Below are positions 16,565 through 42,850 of a DNA stretch of 42,850 nt, one piece after another. Numbering within the stretch: position 1 is the stretch's first letter; each line of letters opens with the position of its first letter. Made by a program: the position numbers and the translations under genes. Source of the DNA: a virus; IMG/VR virus record IMGVR_UViG_3300025131_000093, positions 1-42,850 of that record; one strand, given 5' to 3'. Under the pieces are notes generated by a model that saw nothing but the letters and a program-made list of their open reading frames with translations, had not been told where the DNA came from and searched no databases.

Positions 16565-18660
16565 CAGGTACCTTTCGGGGGTCGGCTGTACTGATAAGAA
16601 GCAATGGCGCTAGCCAGATTGCCCCACGGATTCGACTGCGGCTGATTGAGGATGTTGCCCAACCCCTGTGTCGCGCCTTGAAGCATCGAGTTCTGCTGAG
16701 TGTTCCCGCCTTGACCTTTCGCATACATATCTAAGCCGACATCTTCCTGATACTGCGTCCACGCATCGGCGCCCTGCTGTGAATTCAGGAAGTCGTAGAA
16801 GTTCTGGTTGTTCGCGTTGAACACGCCCTGCTGGATGCCGATGTCGTTGGCCTTAATCGCCTGCGCCTGGTCGAGTCCGCCAGACAGGTTGTCGATAATC
16901 TGCTGGGTGAAGTTTCTGAGATCCGCCAGACGGTTCGAGCGCATATCCTCCGATGTCTCTGCTTCCTTCATCCCGAAGCCGATGCGCGCCTGTGCGAGCT
17001 GATCGAGATAGCCCTTGTTCATCTGATCCGTCAGCGCCCCGCGGAACGATCCGGAGCCTAGCTTATTCGTGGCTGAGTATCGGTTGACGATGTTCTCCAT
17101 CTCCTTATCGCTCGACCGCTTCAGCATCCCTTCCAGTTCGTCGAGTATGCTACCCTTTCCCGCGCTGTATGGATTCGGAGCACCGATCGCGTTCACATAC
17201 TCTGACCCGAGCATGTCGATCGCGCCGGTGTTGCCCAAGATCATGTTCATCAACGCATCACGCAACACTCCGGTGTCGTCCACGATCGCCGGCGGATCGG
17301 CCAGAGGGTCGAAGGTTGAGTAGTCGTAGGTCGCCGGCGGGTCGCCAGTGGAACCGTCATTACCGAGAAGATCCGGATCGTCGTTGTTTCCCTGGCCGCT
17401 CACGCCGCCACCGTGGGCGCCGAGCGCGGTATCGAGGGACTGAAGATCCTCGTCGCTCGCGTCACCCTGGAAGAAGCCGCCGCCGGCGTCGATGATCTGC
17501 TGATCCGTCGGTTGGTCTTGACCAGGTATGTCGTTCGGGTTGCTCTCTCCGATTCTCAGGAAGTCGGCCATGTCGATCGTGCCGCTGCCATCCACATCCC
17601 ACCCAGGTTGCCAGTTTTCGTCGTTTTCCGTAGACCCGAAAGCCGCCTTGAACATATCGACATCCACAGGCCGGCCATCGACCATGACGATGTTCTGGTC
17701 TGAGCCATCGTTGGCGAGGCCACCCGTCGTGTCTCCGCTGTTCTCCAAGCTCAGTAGGTTGTCGTAGCCACCGACATCGCCGCCGACCGTCACCCTGTCC
17801 TCCGGACTCAGCTCGTCCGTGCCGATCGAGCTTCCGAGGATCGGGTTCGCCGGCGTGAACAGTTCGGGATAACTCTCCGTGGTGTAGAAAGTCTCCCCCA
17901 TCTCTCTCAGGTCGCCAGTGAACAGATCCGGAGACAGACCAAGCGTTTCGTACTCGCTTCGGTCAAGCCTCTGGTCGTCCAACACGTCGGCCAGTGTGCC
18001 AGCATCGAGGCCCATCTGGTCGATGATGTAGCTGAGTTGGTCCATCCCGATCAGTCTGTCGTCAGGTAACTGGATGTTCATAGAGCCACCACTTCCCGAG
18101 TCATTGTTGGATGCAGTCCCATTGTCGTTAGTAAGGGTCGGCTGCACGGGCATCGTCGACACCGTGCCGGTGGACCCCGTTCCCCCGGTCCCTGCCGGCG
18201 GTCCCTCTACTTCTTCTCCGAGAGTGTTGAAGTATCTAGTGGTGCCGTTTGACGTGCTTGCCCGTATCACCAGACTTCCGTCAGGGTGTCGAGCGGGGAT
18301 GGAAGACTGATCGACCGGATTGGGAGCTGTTACTGGCGCGTAGGTGGTCTGTGTTTCGGGTGCGGGTTTAGTCGAGTCAGGGACAGCCTCGGGCGCAATC
18401 GCCGCAGCAGTCGGTGTCGGCGCAGCTTTCGGTGTCGGCGCAGCAGTCGGTGTCGGCGCAGCAGTCGGTGTCGGCGCAGCAGTCGGATAAAACATGAAGG
18501 ACCCACCGATCTGCTCCGCCTTCGACAATACGTGCTGAAGGTCGTTGGGGTTACTCCACTCACCGCCATCGACCGCCATCCGCCGCCTGACTCTCGCCAC
18601 CAAAGCCGGATCGAGCTGGTCGATGCTATCAACGCGTTGATTTCCGACATAGTAAGCCAT
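16564..18660 (-). CDS. Probable ejection protein with PTPTAA repeats and EF-hand-like loop (698 aa)
   Basis: The N-terminus (MAYYVGNQRVDSIDQLDPAL) is followed near residues 60-85 by a PTPTAA repeat encoded by an 18-base tandem repeat. A long Asp/Gly/Ser-rich region follows. Near residues 354-367 the sequence DVDGSGTIDMADFL matches a calcium-binding EF-hand or dockerin loop with ligand spacing D-x-D-G-S-G-x-I-x-x-x-D. The C-terminal 250 residues are helical (ELEGMLKRSSDKEMENIVNR) and end QYSRPPKGT, as expected of an injected protein. The start immediately follows the previous stop without a clear ribosome binding site, so coupling is likely. Confidence 0.65.
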   Translation of the reverse strand: MAYYVGNQRVDSIDQLDPALVARVRRRMAVDGGEWSNPNDLQHVLSKAEQIGGSFMFYPTAAPTPTAAPTPTAAPTPKAAPTPTAAAIAPEAVPDSTKPAPETQTTYAPVTAPNPVDQSSIPARHPDGSLVIRASTSNGTTRYFNTLGEEVEGPPAGTGGTGSTGTVSTMPVQPTLTNDNGTASNNDSGSGGSMNIQLPDDRLIGMDQLSYIIDQMGLDAGTLADVLDDQRLDRSEYETLGLSPDLFTGDLREMGETFYTTESYPELFTPANPILGSSIGTDELSPEDRVTVGGDVGGYDNLLSLENSGDTTGGLANDGSDQNIVMVDGRPVDVDMFKAAFGSTENDENWQPGWDVDGSGTIDMADFLRIGESNPNDIPGQDQPTDQQIIDAGGGFFQGDASDEDLQSLDTALGAHGGGVSGQGNNDDPDLLGNDGSTGDPPATYDYSTFDPLADPPAIVDDTGVLRDALMNMILGNTGAIDMLGSEYVNAIGAPNPYSAGKGSILDELEGMLKRSSDKEMENIVNRYSATNKLGSGSFRGALTDQMNKGYLDQLAQARIGFGMKEAETSEDMRSNRLADLRNFTQQIIDNLSGGLDQAQAIKANDIGIQQGVFNANNQNFYDFLNSQQGADAWTQYQEDVGLDMYAKGQGGNTQQNSMLQGATQGLGNILNQPQSNPWGNLASAIASYQYSRPPKGT
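18410..18486 (-). repeat. 18-base tandem repeat encoding PTPTAA
   Basis: Four consecutive units of GTCGGTGTCGGCGCAGCA (plus-strand reading; the second unit begins TT instead of GT) with a partial fifth. On the minus strand they encode Pro-Thr-Pro-Thr-Ala-Ala, with one Thr replaced by Lys. Such a repeat is expected to change copy number between isolates and probably forms a flexible linker. Confidence 0.85.
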
Positions 18661-33173: not shown

Positions 33174-35354
33174 TTACTGAACGGTTTCGGGCGCCTGTTG
33201 ACCACCAAACGCCCCTGACTCGACGACAGCATTCTCAGCTTCCGGCCCTGCACCTTTCGTCGCCATCGCCGCCTGTTGAGCCTGTTGAGCTTGCTGTGCC
33301 ATAGCTTCTTGATACTGTCCCGCCAACTGCATCAGACCCTGTTGCACTTCCTCCGGGTCTTTCTCAAAATCGGAACTCTTGATGTAGTCGGTGATGACTT
33401 TGAAGTGGACCGGATGAATATCGAACGGTCCCATTTCCACCTGTTCGCCGAGATCGCGGATCTTGTGGATGTTCCGTCGTGCGCGCTCCGCGTCTACCGT
33501 GAACTCGTTCTGGAACCCTGGTATCTCTAGTTTTTCCAGAACCTTCATCCTTACTTCAGGATTGCGCGCATCGCCGAGAATGCCTTTGTCGTAGGCCATT
33601 TGGATCTTCTGGTTCGCTACGGCTTTCGACAGGATCACGCTCGCGTCCATCTCTACGAACACGTCCTCGACACCAGAGAAGTCGGCGCCCTTGTAGTGGA
33701 ACTGTTCGGTGATGCTATCCTCGCCGATGATCTTGACGGAGCGTTCCAGTTTCCAATGCTCCTGGGCGAGTCTCAGCTTGTGCTGTTCGTGTCTGCCGAA
33801 GGTGCGTTTGATACGTTTCAGCATCGGGCCGAACCGTTTCGCGGCCTGCTCCAGAAGGATCTCCGTCTGTCCTAGCGTGTCTACACCTGACGGCTGTCTG
33901 CCGGCAAGGACATCGAGCGTTCCGGTAATATCTTCCAGATCGCGTTGCGCGGTTTCGCGCTCCTGAGTGATCGTGTTTGGCAGAGGGACGCCCCCGACTG
34001 GCTTCGGTTCGACACCGCGCGGGAGGCTGTGCGAGTCCCACCGAATAATCGACGCAGGGCGCCCCTCGATAATGCGGACGCCCGACCTGTTCGGGATCAT
34101 CCATCGAGGGTTCAACATCGTCTTGCGGTTGTGGATAATTCCTGAGTCTATACTGTTGATTCGCTTCTGCAGGGGGATCGCCGATCGCATAGGTCCGTGG
34201 CCCCACAACTCACCAGGGATCTTGCGATACTGCGTCAACTCCCACGGTAGTTCGCCGCCTTTGGTCTTGAGCGTGTCGATCGGACCTTCGTGGAGCAGGT
34301 TATTGCCGATCGTGCAAGTGTATTTGCCTTCTGGGAATTTGTCTGAGGGACGATGCCGGAAGAACTTCAACAGCGCGAACTCTGTCGCGTCGTAGTAGTT
34401 CTGCATCAGTCCGTGGCCGTGCTGATTCGTCAGGTAGGCGCCGAGGCCGAGCAGGGAAATATCTTCGGCGAACACTTTGTCGCGCCACTTGGATCCAAAC
34501 ATCGACACGACCTCATCCGGCGTCGTGGCTTCGACCTCGATGGCGTAGTCAACATCCTTCCACCTGGACCGAGGCTGTGGAAAGAAGCCAAACGGGTTCG
34601 TGGCGCGTTCAATGACCTCGCCCTCGTATAGTTCGTCGTAGAGGGGTTGTCCGTTGTCACCCTTCTTGTGTTCGCGCGTAACGTTCATCACAGGCTTGCC
34701 GTCTTGCATCATCGGCACGTTCTCGCGCTCCAACTCAAAGCCGTTCATCATCTGGCCGGCGAAGTCTGCCGGATGGCGCTCGTTCGTCATCCTGTTGATC
34801 GCGACATCCTCGTATGCCTGTTCCTCGTGGATGTCCATCTGTGGGATCTTGACGAGTTTGCCGGCGCGCGTGTCGTATTGGGAGAAAAGAATCAGATTGC
34901 CGGTGAGGATGCACCAGGCCGCTGCCTCATCGAAACAGTCGGCGGTGTCCATCCCTTGATAGAGCGCGCGGAGGACGCGGGAAGCGGCACGACCTCGATC
35001 GACATCATCAGCTCGTTGCGATGCCGGTCGCGCCTGACCCATCAGATCGCCGCCGGTGAGGATGTCTAAAAGGCGATCGTGGATCTTTTGGATGTAGTTG
35101 GTGACAGGAGTCGGAATCCAATCATCGAGGCCGTGGCGCCGGAACGTCTGCGTCGTGCTATTCCAACTGATCCATTGTTCGTCACCGAGAAAGAGTAGTG
35201 CTTCGCGCCAATGAAATTCGTGCGCTAGTTTCGCCCCGCGCGAATAGGCGAGGATTTCGTCGACGTAGGATACCCACTGTTCCGCATCTCCCTTTGTAGG
35301 GATAGTCAGATCATGAACGGGCGATCCCTCGATCGAGCTAATATCAAATGCCAT
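33174..35354 (-). CDS. Portal protein (726 aa)
   Basis: Podovirus/P22-like portal, the dodecameric ring through which DNA passes. Length (726) matches the P22-type portal (about 725). Features include an N-terminal helical wing (HEFHWREALLFLGDEQWISW), the core RPASQRADDVDRGRAA, a long strand/wing region, the stem/clip region around GELWGHGPMRSAIPLQKRIN and DSGIIHNRKTMLNPRWMIPN, and a Gln/Ala-rich C-terminal barrel-like helix. The ATG at 35354 is preferred over TTG 35387: AGGA lies five bases upstream and the longer form would run into the terminator hairpin at 35375-35432. Confidence 0.9.
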   Translation of the reverse strand: MAFDISSIEGSPVHDLTIPTKGDAEQWVSYVDEILAYSRGAKLAHEFHWREALLFLGDEQWISWNSTTQTFRRHGLDDWIPTPVTNYIQKIHDRLLDILTGGDLMGQARPASQRADDVDRGRAASRVLRALYQGMDTADCFDEAAAWCILTGNLILFSQYDTRAGKLVKIPQMDIHEEQAYEDVAINRMTNERHPADFAGQMMNGFELERENVPMMQDGKPVMNVTREHKKGDNGQPLYDELYEGEVIERATNPFGFFPQPRSRWKDVDYAIEVEATTPDEVVSMFGSKWRDKVFAEDISLLGLGAYLTNQHGHGLMQNYYDATEFALLKFFRHRPSDKFPEGKYTCTIGNNLLHEGPIDTLKTKGGELPWELTQYRKIPGELWGHGPMRSAIPLQKRINSIDSGIIHNRKTMLNPRWMIPNRSGVRIIEGRPASIIRWDSHSLPRGVEPKPVGGVPLPNTITQERETAQRDLEDITGTLDVLAGRQPSGVDTLGQTEILLEQAAKRFGPMLKRIKRTFGRHEQHKLRLAQEHWKLERSVKIIGEDSITEQFHYKGADFSGVEDVFVEMDASVILSKAVANQKIQMAYDKGILGDARNPEVRMKVLEKLEIPGFQNEFTVDAERARRNIHKIRDLGEQVEMGPFDIHPVHFKVITDYIKSSDFEKDPEEVQQGLMQLAGQYQEAMAQQAQQAQQAAMATKGAGPEAENAVVESGAFGGQQAPETVQ

Positions 35355-35365
35355 CAATTCCTCAT

Positions 35366-35432
35366 AAAAAAAATGACCGATAGGCAATCATGTAGGTGGA
35401 GGCGACCACCCACACCGATTCGCCTATCGGTC
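35366..35432 (-). terminator. Strong leader terminator/attenuator before the portal gene
   Basis: On the minus strand GACCGATAGGC (35432-35422) pairs perfectly with GCCTATCGGTC (35385-35375). Inside are AATC/GATT pairs and an 8-bp inner stem GTGGGTGG/CCACCTAC with one G-U pair. A run of eight T (35373-35366) follows. A second hairpin, GTACG-N5-CGTAC, is at 35445-35459. The terminator lies between a promoter-like sequence (35496-35467) and the portal start, so it either ends the upstream operon or attenuates the structural operon. Confidence 0.8.
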
Positions 35433-35466: not shown

Positions 35467-35496
35467 AATTTAGAGCATATAGCTGTTTATCGTCAA
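35467..35496 (-). promoter_or_regulatory. Promoter-like sequence upstream of the portal leader
   Basis: Minus strand: TTGACG (35496-35491), 18-base spacer, TAAATT (35472-35467). It overlaps the stop codon of the preceding gene. A transcript from here would run about 95 bases and meet the strong terminator before the portal gene, an attenuation-like arrangement. The -10 match is moderate. Confidence 0.5.
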
Positions 35497-36164
35497 GTTA
35501 TCTGCTGTCTGGCAACCTTATTAAGGATGGTATTCACGAACTGAGCAACGAATTCTAATTGGATCTTCTCACCGCCAAGAATCCACCCATTTCCCGCGTC
35601 ATCTGGCGTTATTTGCATCCCTAGAAGGTCCGGAATGCCCTGCTCGTTGTATCCGTCGTAGACATCCCCATCGAGGACGTAAAGAATCTGCGGTCCAAGT
35701 GGTCCTTTTTCGACCCTAAATGCGAGGCAACGGAAGTCGTTTACGACGAAAATCGAGACTTTCTTGTCTCTGGATTCGGCATTCGCGCGTTTCAGGACGC
35801 ATTCATCGAGTTTTAGACGAACGGCCTTCACCTTCTCTGCCGTCTGGCCGCGCCACTTGCGCTTGCGCTTCTCTCCTGGCTCAAACTTCGGTCCCTGGTG
35901 GACCGTGCCGTCTGACAGTTCCAACGTCGCTTCACCGCCCCCAGGCCTCCAGTGTGAGCGCATCGAGATGTCGGTATCGTCTATGATCGAGGTAGTGACG
36001 ATCGACGTGCCACCAGGGTTGTTGAACGCGCGATTGGACTTGACAGCCGACTCAAAGGTGCGCTCGACCGTTCGTGCCGGCCCTCGCTCCATCTTGGACT
36101 GACCGATGATGTCGTCAGTCTCGACGCTGTTCAGTATGCCGTCATAATCTTCTTCTTCGGGCAT
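35493..36164 (-). CDS. Hypothetical protein between packaging and head modules (223 aa)
   Basis: ATG 36164, overlapping the stop of the preceding membrane protein. MPEEEDYDGILNSVETDDII is acidic, then comes a basic patch (FEPGEKRKRKWRGQTAEKVK) and an ordered alpha/beta C-terminal half (VSIFVVNDFRCLAFRVEKGP; QILYVLDGDVYDGYNEQGIP). Length and composition suggest a soluble assembly or DNA-associated protein. No family recognised. It is the last gene before the leader terminator and would end the packaging transcript. Confidence 0.6.
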   Translation of the reverse strand: MPEEEDYDGILNSVETDDIIGQSKMERGPARTVERTFESAVKSNRAFNNPGGTSIVTTSIIDDTDISMRSHWRPGGGEATLELSDGTVHQGPKFEPGEKRKRKWRGQTAEKVKAVRLKLDECVLKRANAESRDKKVSIFVVNDFRCLAFRVEKGPLGPQILYVLDGDVYDGYNEQGIPDLLGMQITPDDAGNGWILGGEKIQLEFVAQFVNTILNKVARQQIT

Positions 36165-36511
36165 TACGCTTCTTCCTCAACGTCCACGTCAGTAGGGAAA
36201 ATTCCCTCGACAGATTCTGTCGTCGTTTCCCTGCCTCCGAATGGGCCATCATTCACGACAGGTCCGTTCAGTTCTGCTACCCATTGTCCATCTGGTTGCT
36301 TGTAAAATCCTCCTGTGCCGTCTTGCATCGGGATGTAGCCTGGCAGTTCTGGCACCGGCTCCCGATCGAGTTGTCGGATCGAGGCGTGTTCGACCAGGCC
36401 GACGAGTTTGTCGACAAGCTCGCTGTTCTGCTTTCGTAGGCCAATGGCGATGTTACCGATGAACCAGATACAGACGACCGCGAAGGCCGCGAACACCAGA
36501 AGTGTTTCCAT
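36164..36511 (-). CDS. Membrane-anchored protein with coiled stem (115 aa)
   Basis: ATG 36511 with AAGGAGG and good spacing; a longer in-frame form from 36541 is less likely. One N-terminal membrane segment (METLLVFAAFAVVCIWFIGN) is followed by a helix (LRKQNSELVDKLVGLVEHAS) and a Pro/Gly-rich tail with a short repeat (MQDGTGGFYKQPDGQWVAEL). Topology resembles an inner-membrane spanin or signal-anchor lysis protein. This fits its place after the endolysin and terminase genes but is not proven. Confidence 0.6.
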   Translation of the reverse strand: METLLVFAAFAVVCIWFIGNIAIGLRKQNSELVDKLVGLVEHASIRQLDREPVPELPGYIPMQDGTGGFYKQPDGQWVAELNGPVVNDGPFGGRETTTESVEGIFPTDVDVEEEA

Positions 36512-36537
36512 CACTCCCCTCCTTACAAGATCCAACA

Positions 36538-36672
36538 TCAAAGTTCCTTCAAGTCAGGCTTTGGCCAAACCAATTCAAAAATTGAGTCGAATAAACCTAT
36601 GCCAGCCCACATCACTGCCAGAATGAGAACTAACGGCACCGTTATCGGAAGACATAAAATTCTCAGGCCCAT
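36538..36672 (-). CDS. Small membrane protein, possible holin-type (44 aa)
   Basis: Short gene of 44 codons. It starts with ATG 36672, with AGGTG a few bases upstream. The sequence is MGLRILCLPITVPLVLILAV, then MWAGIGLFDSIFELVWPKPD and KEL. One long hydrophobic segment covers nearly half the protein. Its stop overlaps the region just before the next gene's ribosome binding site. Size and topology fit a small holin or pinholin-like protein; I cannot distinguish this from other phage membrane peptides. Confidence 0.45.
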   Translation of the reverse strand: MGLRILCLPITVPLVLILAVMWAGIGLFDSIFELVWPKPDLKEL

Positions 36673-36749
36673 CAGCACCTACTGTGCACGTTTTCAGTTA
36701 GCCGCGTGAATGCCACAGCCGACAACCACAGGCAATCTGTATCGCTCAA
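36672..36749 (-). CDS. Possible very short peptide gene (25 aa)
   Basis: A TTG at 36749 overlaps the stop of the nuclease gene and follows GGAGG by six bases. The frame then runs MSDTDCLWLSAVAFTRLTEN and five more residues to a TGA whose last base is the first base of the next ATG (36672). Both junctions look coupled, but 25 residues is too short to be sure. It may act as a translational bridge. Confidence 0.3.
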   Translation of the reverse strand: MSDTDCLWLSAVAFTRLTENVHSRC

Positions 36750-37570
36750 ATCAGTCCTCCCATCGTAGTTGATTCGCGCTCCATCTTCCTGAGCCGTATC
36801 GCCTTGTCCATCAAATCCTCATCCTCATCTTCCGGTTCCTCGTCGCGAATATACGGCTCCGCGAAGTCTGCCATCGACGGGTCGCCGATGTTCTCTACTG
36901 CGCGTGTTTTGAATGCCGGCGCGTGACCGGCCTCACGTAGTTCCTCTGCAATCGGGAAGTAGAGGATGCCCTGGATCGCGAGCATCCACCCGAAGATCGC
37001 ATCATCTTTGGCACCTCTGATATGCTCGTATTTGCCACGCTTGTTCCTTTGAAAGACCGACATCTGGTCGAGAATCAGCGACGATCGGACGTGGTAGAGG
37101 TTGTCGCGCATCCCCGTTCGCGCGTCGTTCACTAGCTTGTTGCGAGTGAGCGCGTTGGTGTTCCACCCTAACTTTTCCTTCCGCGTGTCCGAGATGTCTG
37201 CCCTGTAAAACCACTCGTAATGGAGGTTAGGATATTCCAGATTCTTGAGGACTTGAAGCGGCGTAATATCCTTGTTGTTCTCGATGAGGACGTAGGACCA
37301 GTTGTACCATTTCCCGACGAGATAACAGAGTAAACCAAACTCGTCTGGGTCGATGGAGCCGGTGAACTCACAACACTGATTTCCTGTGTCTGACCGCAGT
37401 ACGCACAGGGAACTGTCATCACCGTGTTCAAGTCCTTCTGCGACATCGGCTCCGAGAGAATAGGTTTTTCCTGGCTCCGGTCGCTCCCAAACTTTGAGCA
37501 AAATGCGCGCATCGCCTTCGACTCCGAAAAGGGATTCGACATCGTATTCTATTTTGAGGGCTTCAGGCAT
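36746..37570 (-). CDS. Terminase large subunit, nuclease half (274 aa)
   Basis: RNase H-like nuclease domain of a large terminase, encoded without the ATPase. Catalytic acids visible: D42 in SLGADVAEG, E97 in VLIENNKD and D189/D190 in GAKDDAIFG, in the order and spacing of TerL nucleases. WNTNALTRNKLVNDARTGM also matches the family pattern before the last acid. It would cut the concatemer during headful packaging. The partner ATPase is encoded separately at 38268-39368, with lysis genes between. The start at 37570 overlaps the endolysin stop by eight bases with no obvious ribosome binding site, implying coupled translation. Confidence 0.85.
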   Translation of the reverse strand: MPEALKIEYDVESLFGVEGDARILLKVWERPEPGKTYSLGADVAEGLEHGDDSSLCVLRSDTGNQCCEFTGSIDPDEFGLLCYLVGKWYNWSYVLIENNKDITPLQVLKNLEYPNLHYEWFYRADISDTRKEKLGWNTNALTRNKLVNDARTGMRDNLYHVRSSLILDQMSVFQRNKRGKYEHIRGAKDDAIFGWMLAIQGILYFPIAEELREAGHAPAFKTRAVENIGDPSMADFAEPYIRDEEPEDEDEDLMDKAIRLRKMERESTTMGGLI

Positions 37571-37976
37571 TTTGATAGATCAGCGTTGCGACACATCCGA
37601 TGTGCCAGTGTTCGGAATCCTTCCCGCGCCCGACACGGACGAGGGGGATGCCCTGGTTGAGACACAGCCGTTCAAACCTGTTGGCCGTATCCTTCGTCCA
37701 CGTCTTGTCTCCGAAGAAGGCTTTGTCGCCGGCACTGATCGCAGAGATGTCTGCCGCCTCACTGTGTTCGTGGAACGGCCCTGGCTTCGTTATTGCCGTC
37801 ACACGGATGGGGCGATCGAAGTAACTCAGGGCGATAGCATTCGCCTGTGCTAACCAGATTGATAACGTCGCGTTGAGTTGGTTCGATCGCCACAGTTGCA
37901 GATCCTTGACGCCCTTGAAGATCATCAGCTCGTAGACACTGCCTGTCGCCTCGTTTCGTTGAATCAGATCAGCCAT
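37563..37976 (-). CDS. Endolysin, M15-type peptidase (137 aa)
   Basis: Probable zinc peptidase that cleaves the peptide cross-links of peptidoglycan (D-Ala-D-Ala carboxypeptidase or L-Ala-D-Glu type). FHEHSEAADIS gives H69 and D76 with the H-x6-D spacing of M15 enzymes, and SEHWHIG gives E122 and H125, completing the metal and catalytic set. There is no cell-wall-binding domain and no signal peptide, so release would need a holin. ATG 37976 has GGAG six bases upstream; an in-frame start at 38027 is less likely. The gene overlaps the membrane protein before it and the nuclease after it. Confidence 0.8.
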   Translation of the reverse strand: MADLIQRNEATGSVYELMIFKGVKDLQLWRSNQLNATLSIWLAQANAIALSYFDRPIRVTAITKPGPFHEHSEAADISAISAGDKAFFGDKTWTKDTANRFERLCLNQGIPLVRVGRGKDSEHWHIGCVATLIYQNA

Positions 37977-38268
37977 ACCACGCTCCGTATTTGCCGGCGA
38001 TGAGTACGCCGAGTCTGAAGAACGCAAGCGAGGCTACGCCGGCAATAGCCGTGACGATCGCCAGACCCTTCCTTGTGAATACGCTCGGTCGAGGGACGAG
38101 CCACCCGATGATTGCTACATAGAAGTAGAAGTATCGTGTGACGATGTGCCAGAGGTCGTGCTTGGTTCCGGGGTGAATAATCGGGTCGCCCCACGTTGCA
38201 TCCCCATAGCCTTTGGCGATCGACATCACGCAGATCGCGAGCAGTGAGCAGTATAGATCCCTCAACAT
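37969..38268 (-). CDS. Probable holin, multi-span membrane protein (99 aa)
   Basis: ATG 38268 shares a base with the stop of the terminase ATPase (TGATG); a GTG one codon earlier is possible. It has three hydrophobic stretches: residues about 1-18 (LYCSLLAICVMSIA), about 46-60 (YFYFYVAIIGWLV) and about 70-92 (GLAIVTAIAGVASLAFF). It directly precedes the endolysin, the usual holin position. The segment between spans one and two contains HPGTKHDLWHIVTRY. Holin function is inferred from context and topology. Confidence 0.65.
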   Translation of the reverse strand: MLRDLYCSLLAICVMSIAKGYGDATWGDPIIHPGTKHDLWHIVTRYFYFYVAIIGWLVPRPSVFTRKGLAIVTAIAGVASLAFFRLGVLIAGKYGAWYG

Positions 38269-39368
38269 CACGCCGCCTCGTTGAAGATGATGCGCTTCCG
38301 TGTTTCGTAGTGATGCTGCGTAGCCGCGCGCGCGAAGTATTCTGCGTCTGGCTCGATCTCTGCCTCGTATTCTTGCTCGTCTAGGAAACCGAGCGTTGGG
38401 TCCACCATGTGAACCTCCCTCTGTTCCTTGATAAGATCCATCGCGAAAGCCAATCGGATACCCGATGGCTGAAATAGACCGTATGTACGCGTATCACGGC
38501 TGTCCTCGTCATACGAGGCGATGATTCTCGTTTTTTCTTCTTCGGGGATGATCCAGTCTGGAACGTCGAGAAGTGTCCAGAAGTGAAAGCGCAAATCTGG
38601 AATTTCCGCACGACGTGTGTAGAGACTTGGATGAATCCAAGAGATGCCAACACTCTCACGGTATATAGGCGTAAACGACCGAATGATTTCACCTGGTGGT
38701 CCGCCCACACCGGCAGTCCTCGCAACACATTCGTCGTCCACGTCCTTTGGCTGTTCTTCGTCCAGGTGGACGATCTCTTGCTTGGTTCCCTGAAACGCTG
38801 CGGCTCCCTGACTTGAATACCTAAAACGGATGACAGAATTGAACGGTGGCTTAAATACGATGACGTTATTTTTCCATCCACGCTCAACCGTGTAGTCGCA
38901 AGAATCCGTGAGTAGATACTCCGGACAAAGTTCGTGATACTTCGCTTGAACGATTTCAATGGATGTGTCCTCGGTGTCAGAGACAGTCCAGACGTTCACT
39001 GGCGGTAGGAAGCGTTCGCTCGCTTGCTTGGTGACGGGATTCATCCCGATGCATCCGGAGATCACTTCTGCGGCTGACGAGTAGGTCTTGGCGCAACGGT
39101 TTCCGGTGACGACGATGCGTTGCTTGGATGTGTCCAGGTGGAACTTCAGGGGCGAGGATTTGATGTCGCCGTTGGGTAGGGCGCCTTCGGGACAGTCGAA
39201 GGGCATATAGTTGTAGATGGGATCTGCCGCGACGTGATCCATGTAGTATCGGAAGTTGGGGATGGTGCGTTCGGCTCGTTCGGAAAGCTCGTTCGCCTCA
39301 TTCGGATACTTCTGAATCATAAAGCTCAACATGGTCACGGCTGACCATATATCGCCTATGCTCGCCAT
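38268..39368 (-). CDS. Terminase large subunit, ATPase half (366 aa)
   Basis: ATPase motor part of a large terminase. Walker A is TGNRCAKTYS (G89-T95; the phage-type G-N-R-x-A-K-T with Ala in place of the usual Gly before Lys). Walker B is EIVHLDEEQ (199-206, catalytic Glu after Asp). The coupling motif is SFTP (231-234). The protein ends at FNEAA after about 120 further residues and lacks the nuclease acids, which are found in the separate 274-residue protein at 36746-37570. It starts at ATG 39368, sharing a base with the previous gene's stop. It is part of the packaging operon driven from 40257. Confidence 0.88.
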   Translation of the reverse strand: MASIGDIWSAVTMLSFMIQKYPNEANELSERAERTIPNFRYYMDHVAADPIYNYMPFDCPEGALPNGDIKSSPLKFHLDTSKQRIVVTGNRCAKTYSSAAEVISGCIGMNPVTKQASERFLPPVNVWTVSDTEDTSIEIVQAKYHELCPEYLLTDSCDYTVERGWKNNVIVFKPPFNSVIRFRYSSQGAAAFQGTKQEIVHLDEEQPKDVDDECVARTAGVGGPPGEIIRSFTPIYRESVGISWIHPSLYTRRAEIPDLRFHFWTLLDVPDWIIPEEEKTRIIASYDEDSRDTRTYGLFQPSGIRLAFAMDLIKEQREVHMVDPTLGFLDEQEYEAEIEPDAEYFARAATQHHYETRKRIIFNEAA

Positions 39369-42490: not shown

Positions 42491-42850
42491 CACTACCTCC
42501 CTGTGAACGACGATCTCGCATCATAGCTTCCCTGGCAACATCACCACCTTCGCTCGTTTCCTCCGTGAACTCCGCATCCTCTATCACTTCGTGACCCCCA
42601 ATATTATCAGAAAATCGTCCGTGGGGTGGTTCCATAGTCTCCCTTCCCCTCCCCCCGGGGGCCGCGCCGTCGCGTGGGTGGGGGGGGGGTTCGCGCTCCT
42701 GACGTGGACCAGGGTCTGCGCCGCTGACTCTGGCCTGGATCAACGCAGTCCGGATCGAGTCAAGCCGATCGGCGAATGACGCCGGCTCCTGGGTGCTGTC
42801 CTGGGCGCCGGATCCCTGGCCTGGGCTGTCCTGGGCGCTACGATCGCCGC
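42468..42850 (-). CDS. Junction-spanning hypothetical protein, C-terminal part
   Basis: Continuation of the gene that starts at 572, open at the right edge of the window; 42670-42850 duplicates the left end. After a proline run (GAA followed by CCC codons, from the G10 tract) the tail contains PPHGRFSDNIGGHEVIEDAE and ends in an acidic, serine- and glycine-rich stretch with stop at 42468. The stop lies 23 bases inside the next gene, so the two are probably translationally coupled. The low-complexity C-terminus suggests a disordered tail. Function unknown. Confidence 0.7.
   Translation of the reverse strand, partial: GDRSAQDSPGQGSGAQDSTQEPASFADRLDSIRTALIQARVSGADPGPRQEREPPPHPRDGAAPGGRGRETMEPPHGRFSDNIGGHEVIEDAEFTEETSEGGDVAREAMMRDRRSQGGSDESEGAS
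42670..42850. repeat. Terminal direct repeat, right copy
   Basis: Second copy of the 181-base terminal repeat, offset 42669 from the left copy. The two differences fall in adjacent codons of the junction gene on the minus strand: one is silent (GGT/GGC) and one is Thr to Ser (ACC/AGC). Selection on the protein is therefore compatible with both versions being real variants. Confidence 0.9.

Follow-up and report, generated by a model that had tools for sequence, protein, structure and literature searches.

Does the packaging motor of a tailed phage need its ATPase and its nuclease on one polypeptide? By the usual account the large terminase (TerL) is universally one chain with two domains, and its C-terminal nuclease has been called universal in Caudovirales (PMC7824862). 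The question is raised by IMG/VR virus record IMGVR_UViG_3300025131_000093 of an uncultured tailed phage (positions 1-42,850; the window in the following). Judged from sequence, two separate open reading frames (ORFs; lengths in amino acids, aa) are here the TerL ATPase and the TerL nuclease on separate chains:

38268..39368, minus strand: TerL ATPase chain, 366 aa (Walker motifs, Terminase_6N, homology to the fused TerL of relative L017, fold search)
36746..37570, minus strand: TerL nuclease chain, 274 aa, RNase H fold with D42/E97/D189-D190 (sequence, profile and fold matches)

The ATPase chain carries the hallmarks of the ASCE ATPase of TerL: Walker A (GNRCAKT, residues 89-95), Walker B (HLDEE) with the catalytic Glu (residues 203-205) and the coupling motif (TP, residues 233-234). 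It ends in a linker tail at about residues 307-366. An initial annotation of the window had placed both Walker motifs in this protein; this was borne out, and in a 19-member alignment of the family to which the window belongs the Walker A and B cores and the TP motif were invariant. Terminase_6N scored 20.1 bits against the window ATPase, just below the cut-off of 22, and 23.7 bits against the L017 TerL. A family ATPase profile matched only the Jasmine/LUZ24 TerL panel (E-value 3e-35 to Jasmine). In an AlphaFold model of a family ATPase the structural matches were the TerL ATPases of P74-26, D6E, Sf6 and T4 gp17.

The nuclease chain has an RNase H fold with an Asp/Glu/Asp metal site. The acids D42, E97 and D189/D190, to which the initial annotation had pointed in the 274-aa protein, are invariant in 20 members. 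The chain matched TerL nucleases of Vibrio and Stx phages (37% identity to 252E42), and the nuclease profile detected RB49 and T4 gp17 nucleases with E-values of 4e-9 and 1e-7. Foldseek with the predicted fold returned T4 gp17 (E-value 3e-9) and the nucleases of G20c, RB49 and P74-26. The family nuclease profile matched the Vibrio-252E42 panel and one fused hybrid, L036.

Decisive for the identification of the two ORFs as TerL halves was a fused relative. Contig IMGVR_UViG_3300030392_001562 (listed both as L017 and L142) encodes a single 605-aa TerL which aligns with both window halves and has no inserted genes: residues 29-317 of the window ATPase align at 54% identity, and residues 24-274 of the window nuclease, i.e. 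up to its last residue, at 42%. The gene order then runs on to the portal much as in the window: a small membrane protein is followed by a protein of 200 aa and by a portal with 35% identity to that of the window. Searches of the window with the nuclease and the ATPase found a single copy of each, and no further TerL turned up with these searches or with the PHROG TerL profile phrog_2. Another full-length TerL in the genome would have spoken against the split; none was found. By these searches the pair constitutes the only TerL of the genome; it lies upstream of the portal. With a fused relative spanning both and no other TerL found, the view that ATPase and nuclease are two TerL domains on separate chains was supported. 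Because the two reside on separate ORFs, we file the system as a two-chain variant and not as an ordinary TerL.

Is the split peculiar to this genome? Virus contigs were scanned with a four-member ATPase alignment. This yielded 34 loci, which clustered at 90% ATPase identity into 20 clusters; two scans of genome contigs returned no relatives. Of the 20 clusters, 19 have ATPase and nuclease on separate ORFs, divided at the same interdomain linker, and one has them fused. When the ORFs were searched by profile, the end of the ATPase profile and the start of the nuclease profile fell into different ORFs at every locus except L142. The nuclease profile gave one match per record in 8/8 records. The general TerL profile matched only the ATPase ORF (343-378 aa) in four other members; in further records checked it matched the ATPase ORF only or nothing. 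phrog_2 matched the L017 TerL across both domains and neither TerL half in the window. Since it misses the window and several relatives, full-length TerL marker profiles miss such phages. The recurrence of the two-ORF arrangement in 19 of 20 related clusters excludes chance. The split is a feature of a lineage, beyond the window genome alone.

This also bears on the trivial explanation that a misassembled contig or a decaying gene simulates the split. The contig is metagenomic, which is what such an explanation would start from. Yet another IMG/VR contig, 3300002514_000246, matches the window at 100% identity across the 12 kb compared, and 18 further clusters are split. Where synonymous substitutions (dS) were not saturated, the ratio of nonsynonymous to synonymous substitution (dN/dS) was about 0.04-0.11 for both halves, i.e. 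purifying selection is strong. Misassembly and a pseudogene were thus in the main refuted, and we consider their probability to be negligible.

Could the halves nevertheless be joined to one protein, by splicing or intein trans-splicing, or in translation by ribosomal hopping, frameshifting or stop readthrough? Jug phages do have group I introns in their TerL genes (PMC12363816), and in L121 and L173 the halves are parted by just one in-frame TGA; in L173 an ATG follows 18 nucleotides (nt) further on. However, the halves in the window are about 700 nt apart with two ORFs between them, a membrane protein and an M15-like protein, and no Rfam family, group I and II introns included, was matched at the gathering threshold in the window or at the junction. 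In E-value mode Rfam returned only a fluoride riboswitch at chance level. This agrees with the initial annotation, which had noted no intron-like gap. From sequence and general knowledge, neither terminus is long enough to hold half of a split intein. The relatives differ in frame offset and in overlap, the offsets being 0, 1 and 2. The genes overlap or abut in 13 of the 19 split clusters (ATGA, TAATG or overlaps of 13-43 nt), and five clusters have inserted genes at the junction, the inserts measuring about 0.2-3.2 kb:

window: membrane protein and M15-like ORF
L154/155: Peptidase_M15_3 gene
L156/157: 116-aa gene
L169: ORF of 89 aa that overlaps the junction
L171: insert of about 3.2 kb; one of its genes matches PF03214 (reversibly glycosylated polypeptide; glycosyltransferase-like)

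The varied layouts and frame offsets fit two real genes better than a conserved frameshift. Frameshift and hopping were rejected on the variable frames and the long inserts, and a joined protein by any of these routes appears very improbable.

How, then, may two chains package DNA? We consider it quite probable that a conserved two-chain large terminase, the parts of which assemble in trans, replaces the single two-domain TerL. One gene would supply the packaging ATPase, i.e. the motor, and the second the RNase H-fold nuclease, i.e. the cutter. Most likely the chains would assemble at the portal via the ATPase-nuclease contact which an ordinary TerL makes within one molecule. Translational coupling of the overlapping genes might keep the amounts of the two chains in step, and the gene junction would have taken in extra genes, the probable holin/endolysin-like pair in the window and other cargo elsewhere. 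The initial annotation had inferred that the motor assembles from two chains; the separate chains stand, and assembly into one motor is presumed.

Several points weigh against such a two-chain motor. In T4 a hinge joins ATPase and nuclease; the separated domains retain their own activities and lose translocation (PMC9958956). The break in the family TerL falls in the linker which corresponds to this hinge. Because the separated T4 domains lose translocation, assembly in trans must differ from T4. Furthermore, all family members are metagenomic contigs known from sequence alone. Lastly, the phrog_2 search was blind to both halves, and this leaves a residual possibility of an extremely divergent extra TerL.

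Motors of the phi29 type operate without a working nuclease domain. Like these, the ATPase chain alone might be the motor, with the nuclease recruited only when packaging starts and ends. Separate chains would allow such recruitment, and the T4 nuclease acts at initiation and at termination, not during translocation (PMC9958956). On the other hand, the T4 C-domain carries the translocation groove (PMC9958956), and in the family the two genes are always together, usually overlap and have similar rates of change; the chains have stayed paired over a long span of evolution. Moreover, the genome does encode a TerL nuclease with an intact active site, other than expected for a phi29-like system. 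We regard an ATPase-only motor as rather unlikely and retain the two-chain terminase. If true, the covalent ATPase-nuclease linkage, held to be essential from T4, is no requirement of terminase motors. The lineage, in which the linker cut is already made, is a natural test of ATPase-nuclease communication and of whether the nuclease rides in the motor. Going further, we lean towards a headful or terminal-repeat motor of two non-covalent chains in which the cutter joins and leaves the ring freely, a covalent linkage is not required, and TerL has been split several times in podoviruses.

The origin of the split was read from the ATPase and portal trees because long branches (L007, L029, L036) disturb the nuclease tree. 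In the ATPase tree the family is one clade (100/100) inside the fused Jasmine/LUZ24-type TerLs, and the portal tree recovers the same lineage. The window and the fused L142 are sisters in both (100/96 in the ATPase tree, 97 in the portal tree), and the other 18 clusters are all split. With a fused sister and fused outgroups, the window may have been split independently of the other 18 clusters. In addition, the window nuclease keeps an N-terminal stretch, DVESLFGVEGD, similar to the linker in the Vibrio 252E42 TerL, which is fused. Yet an ancestral split followed by re-fusion in L017 costs the same two changes as two splits, and the split site is identical in all clusters. We view an independent split as an open contender, marginally short of an even chance. 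The ATPase and the nuclease of the family stem from different TerL lineages, of Jasmine/LUZ24 type and Vibrio 252E42 type, respectively. That the hybrid make-up and the split arose as one event was considered and dropped: besides L017, L036 has a fused 523-aa TerL of the same make-up (Jasmine-type ATPase, Vibrio-252E42-type nuclease). As fused hybrids exist, the two may have arisen separately.

What is the role of the genes between the halves? In the window these are:

37969..38271, minus strand: small membrane protein, 100 aa, GTG start within the GTGA at the ATPase stop (hydropathy)
37563..37976, minus strand: M15-like zinc peptidase, 137 aa (motif only, HxxxxAxD ... HWH)

The 100-aa protein is a possible holin. 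It had been annotated as a three-span membrane protein; by hydropathy it has two clear spans and a weaker N-terminal one. A database match was not obtained for it. The 137-aa protein is a possible endolysin. Here the zinc motif of the proposed M15-type peptidase is present, and Pfam, PHROG, PDB and phage records returned no match. In L155 (5993-6442) a Peptidase_M15_3 gene (Pfam E-value 4e-12) is located between ATPase and nuclease as in the window, and in L167 (3232-3612) such a gene is upstream of the ATPase. The genes of the membrane protein and the M15-like protein are probable lysis genes. The initial annotation had gone further and proposed that lysis and nuclease expression are tied and that DNA cutting may be delayed. 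Neither was supported as proposed: as the two TerL genes directly overlap or abut in 13 of 19 split clusters and the inserts elsewhere differ, the pair is not needed for the split. No evidence links the pair to the time of cutting. The pair is best regarded as cargo at a gene junction open to insertion.

The packaging module on the minus strand reads 83-aa ORF, ATPase, membrane protein, M15-like ORF, nuclease, small membrane protein, 223-aa protein and portal. The four ORFs of the initial annotation are all where it had placed them. It had reported overlaps of 1-8 bases; we measured 1 nt for 83-aa ORF/ATPase, 4 nt (GTGA) for ATPase/membrane protein, and 8 nt each for membrane protein/M15-like ORF and M15-like ORF/nuclease, counted with the M15-like start at ATG 37976. 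The remaining members of the module are:

36164..36541, minus strand: small protein, membrane span at its N-terminus; in family members, too, a small membrane protein of this type follows the nuclease gene
35493..36164, minus strand: 223-aa protein between TerL nuclease and portal; relatives have a gene of similar size at the same place
33174..35387, minus strand: portal protein, 737 aa, 35% identical to the L017 portal; anchors the packaging module

In many members a motif LLRQLNxERxER recurs in the small membrane protein after the nuclease (window 36164-36541; L151 1928-2170; L161 6590-6844), which may be spanin-like or have another role. The window ends (42670-42850 versus 1-181) share 181 base pairs (bp) at 98.9% identity with two mismatches. 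This suggests a full-length genome, by a direct terminal repeat or by assembly overlap. Separately, a 698-aa ORF of the window contains short imperfect tandem direct repeats at 18399-18486 (52 bp, 94%).

How does the two-chain terminase compare with known systems? The open-licence papers searched describe intron-split terL; a stable two-gene TerL was not reported in any of them. In Jug phages terL is in several ORFs, as here, and splicing of the group I introns restores the protein (PMC12363816), whereas no intron signature was found here. The TerL of Jasminevirus/Bruynoghevirus (Jasmine, SCYZ1, Delta/PaP3 type) shares the homologous ATPase and the position upstream of the portal; however, it is one chain, and its nuclease is of another lineage, unmatched by the family nuclease profile. 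Conversely, the TerLs of Vibrio phage 252E42.2/933W-like Stx phages and T4/RB49 gp17 have a homologous nuclease domain, but they are single chains with an ATPase unmatched by the family ATPase profile. The L017/L142 TerL is homologous to the window in both halves and goes with a related portal, and differs by being one 605-aa chain. T7-like and LUZ24-like phages have a lysis gene beside the terminase (the order in SCYZ1 is TerS, lysozyme, TerL), yet outside of TerL, whereas in the window the probable lysis pair is between the TerL domains.

Other TerLs are also interrupted. In podovirus contigs L045-L104 (e.g. L080, L084, L095, L104) the TerL break separates the ATPase core (after TFTPLxG...FLPGG) from lid plus nuclease, frequently with inserted ORFs in between. 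For 20 of 23 truncated ATPase ORFs with this break the remainder is in a separate downstream ORF, -16 to +2759 nt away; the 23 were drawn from 80 ATPase neighbours ranked by score, and the fraction is no prevalence. In L018 (1556-4636) the gene of a 404-aa pentapeptide-repeat membrane protein interrupts a TerL of Vibrio 252E42 type within the C-lobe of the ATPase. Because other podovirus contigs are split at a different site, TerL seems to have been split more than once. Two such examples of other TerL lineages are already in GenBank, unremarked. The Manatee Spring podoviruses ct2G2228 (MW202785) and ctLwi270 (MW202554) each have, like the window, two neighbouring coding sequences annotated as large terminase. 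In ct2G2228 the break is before the lid and not at the interdomain linker. In ctLwi270 (L012, 4169-6706) we read from the sequence an intein-like insert in the ATPase gene; a separate gene encodes the nuclease (229 aa).
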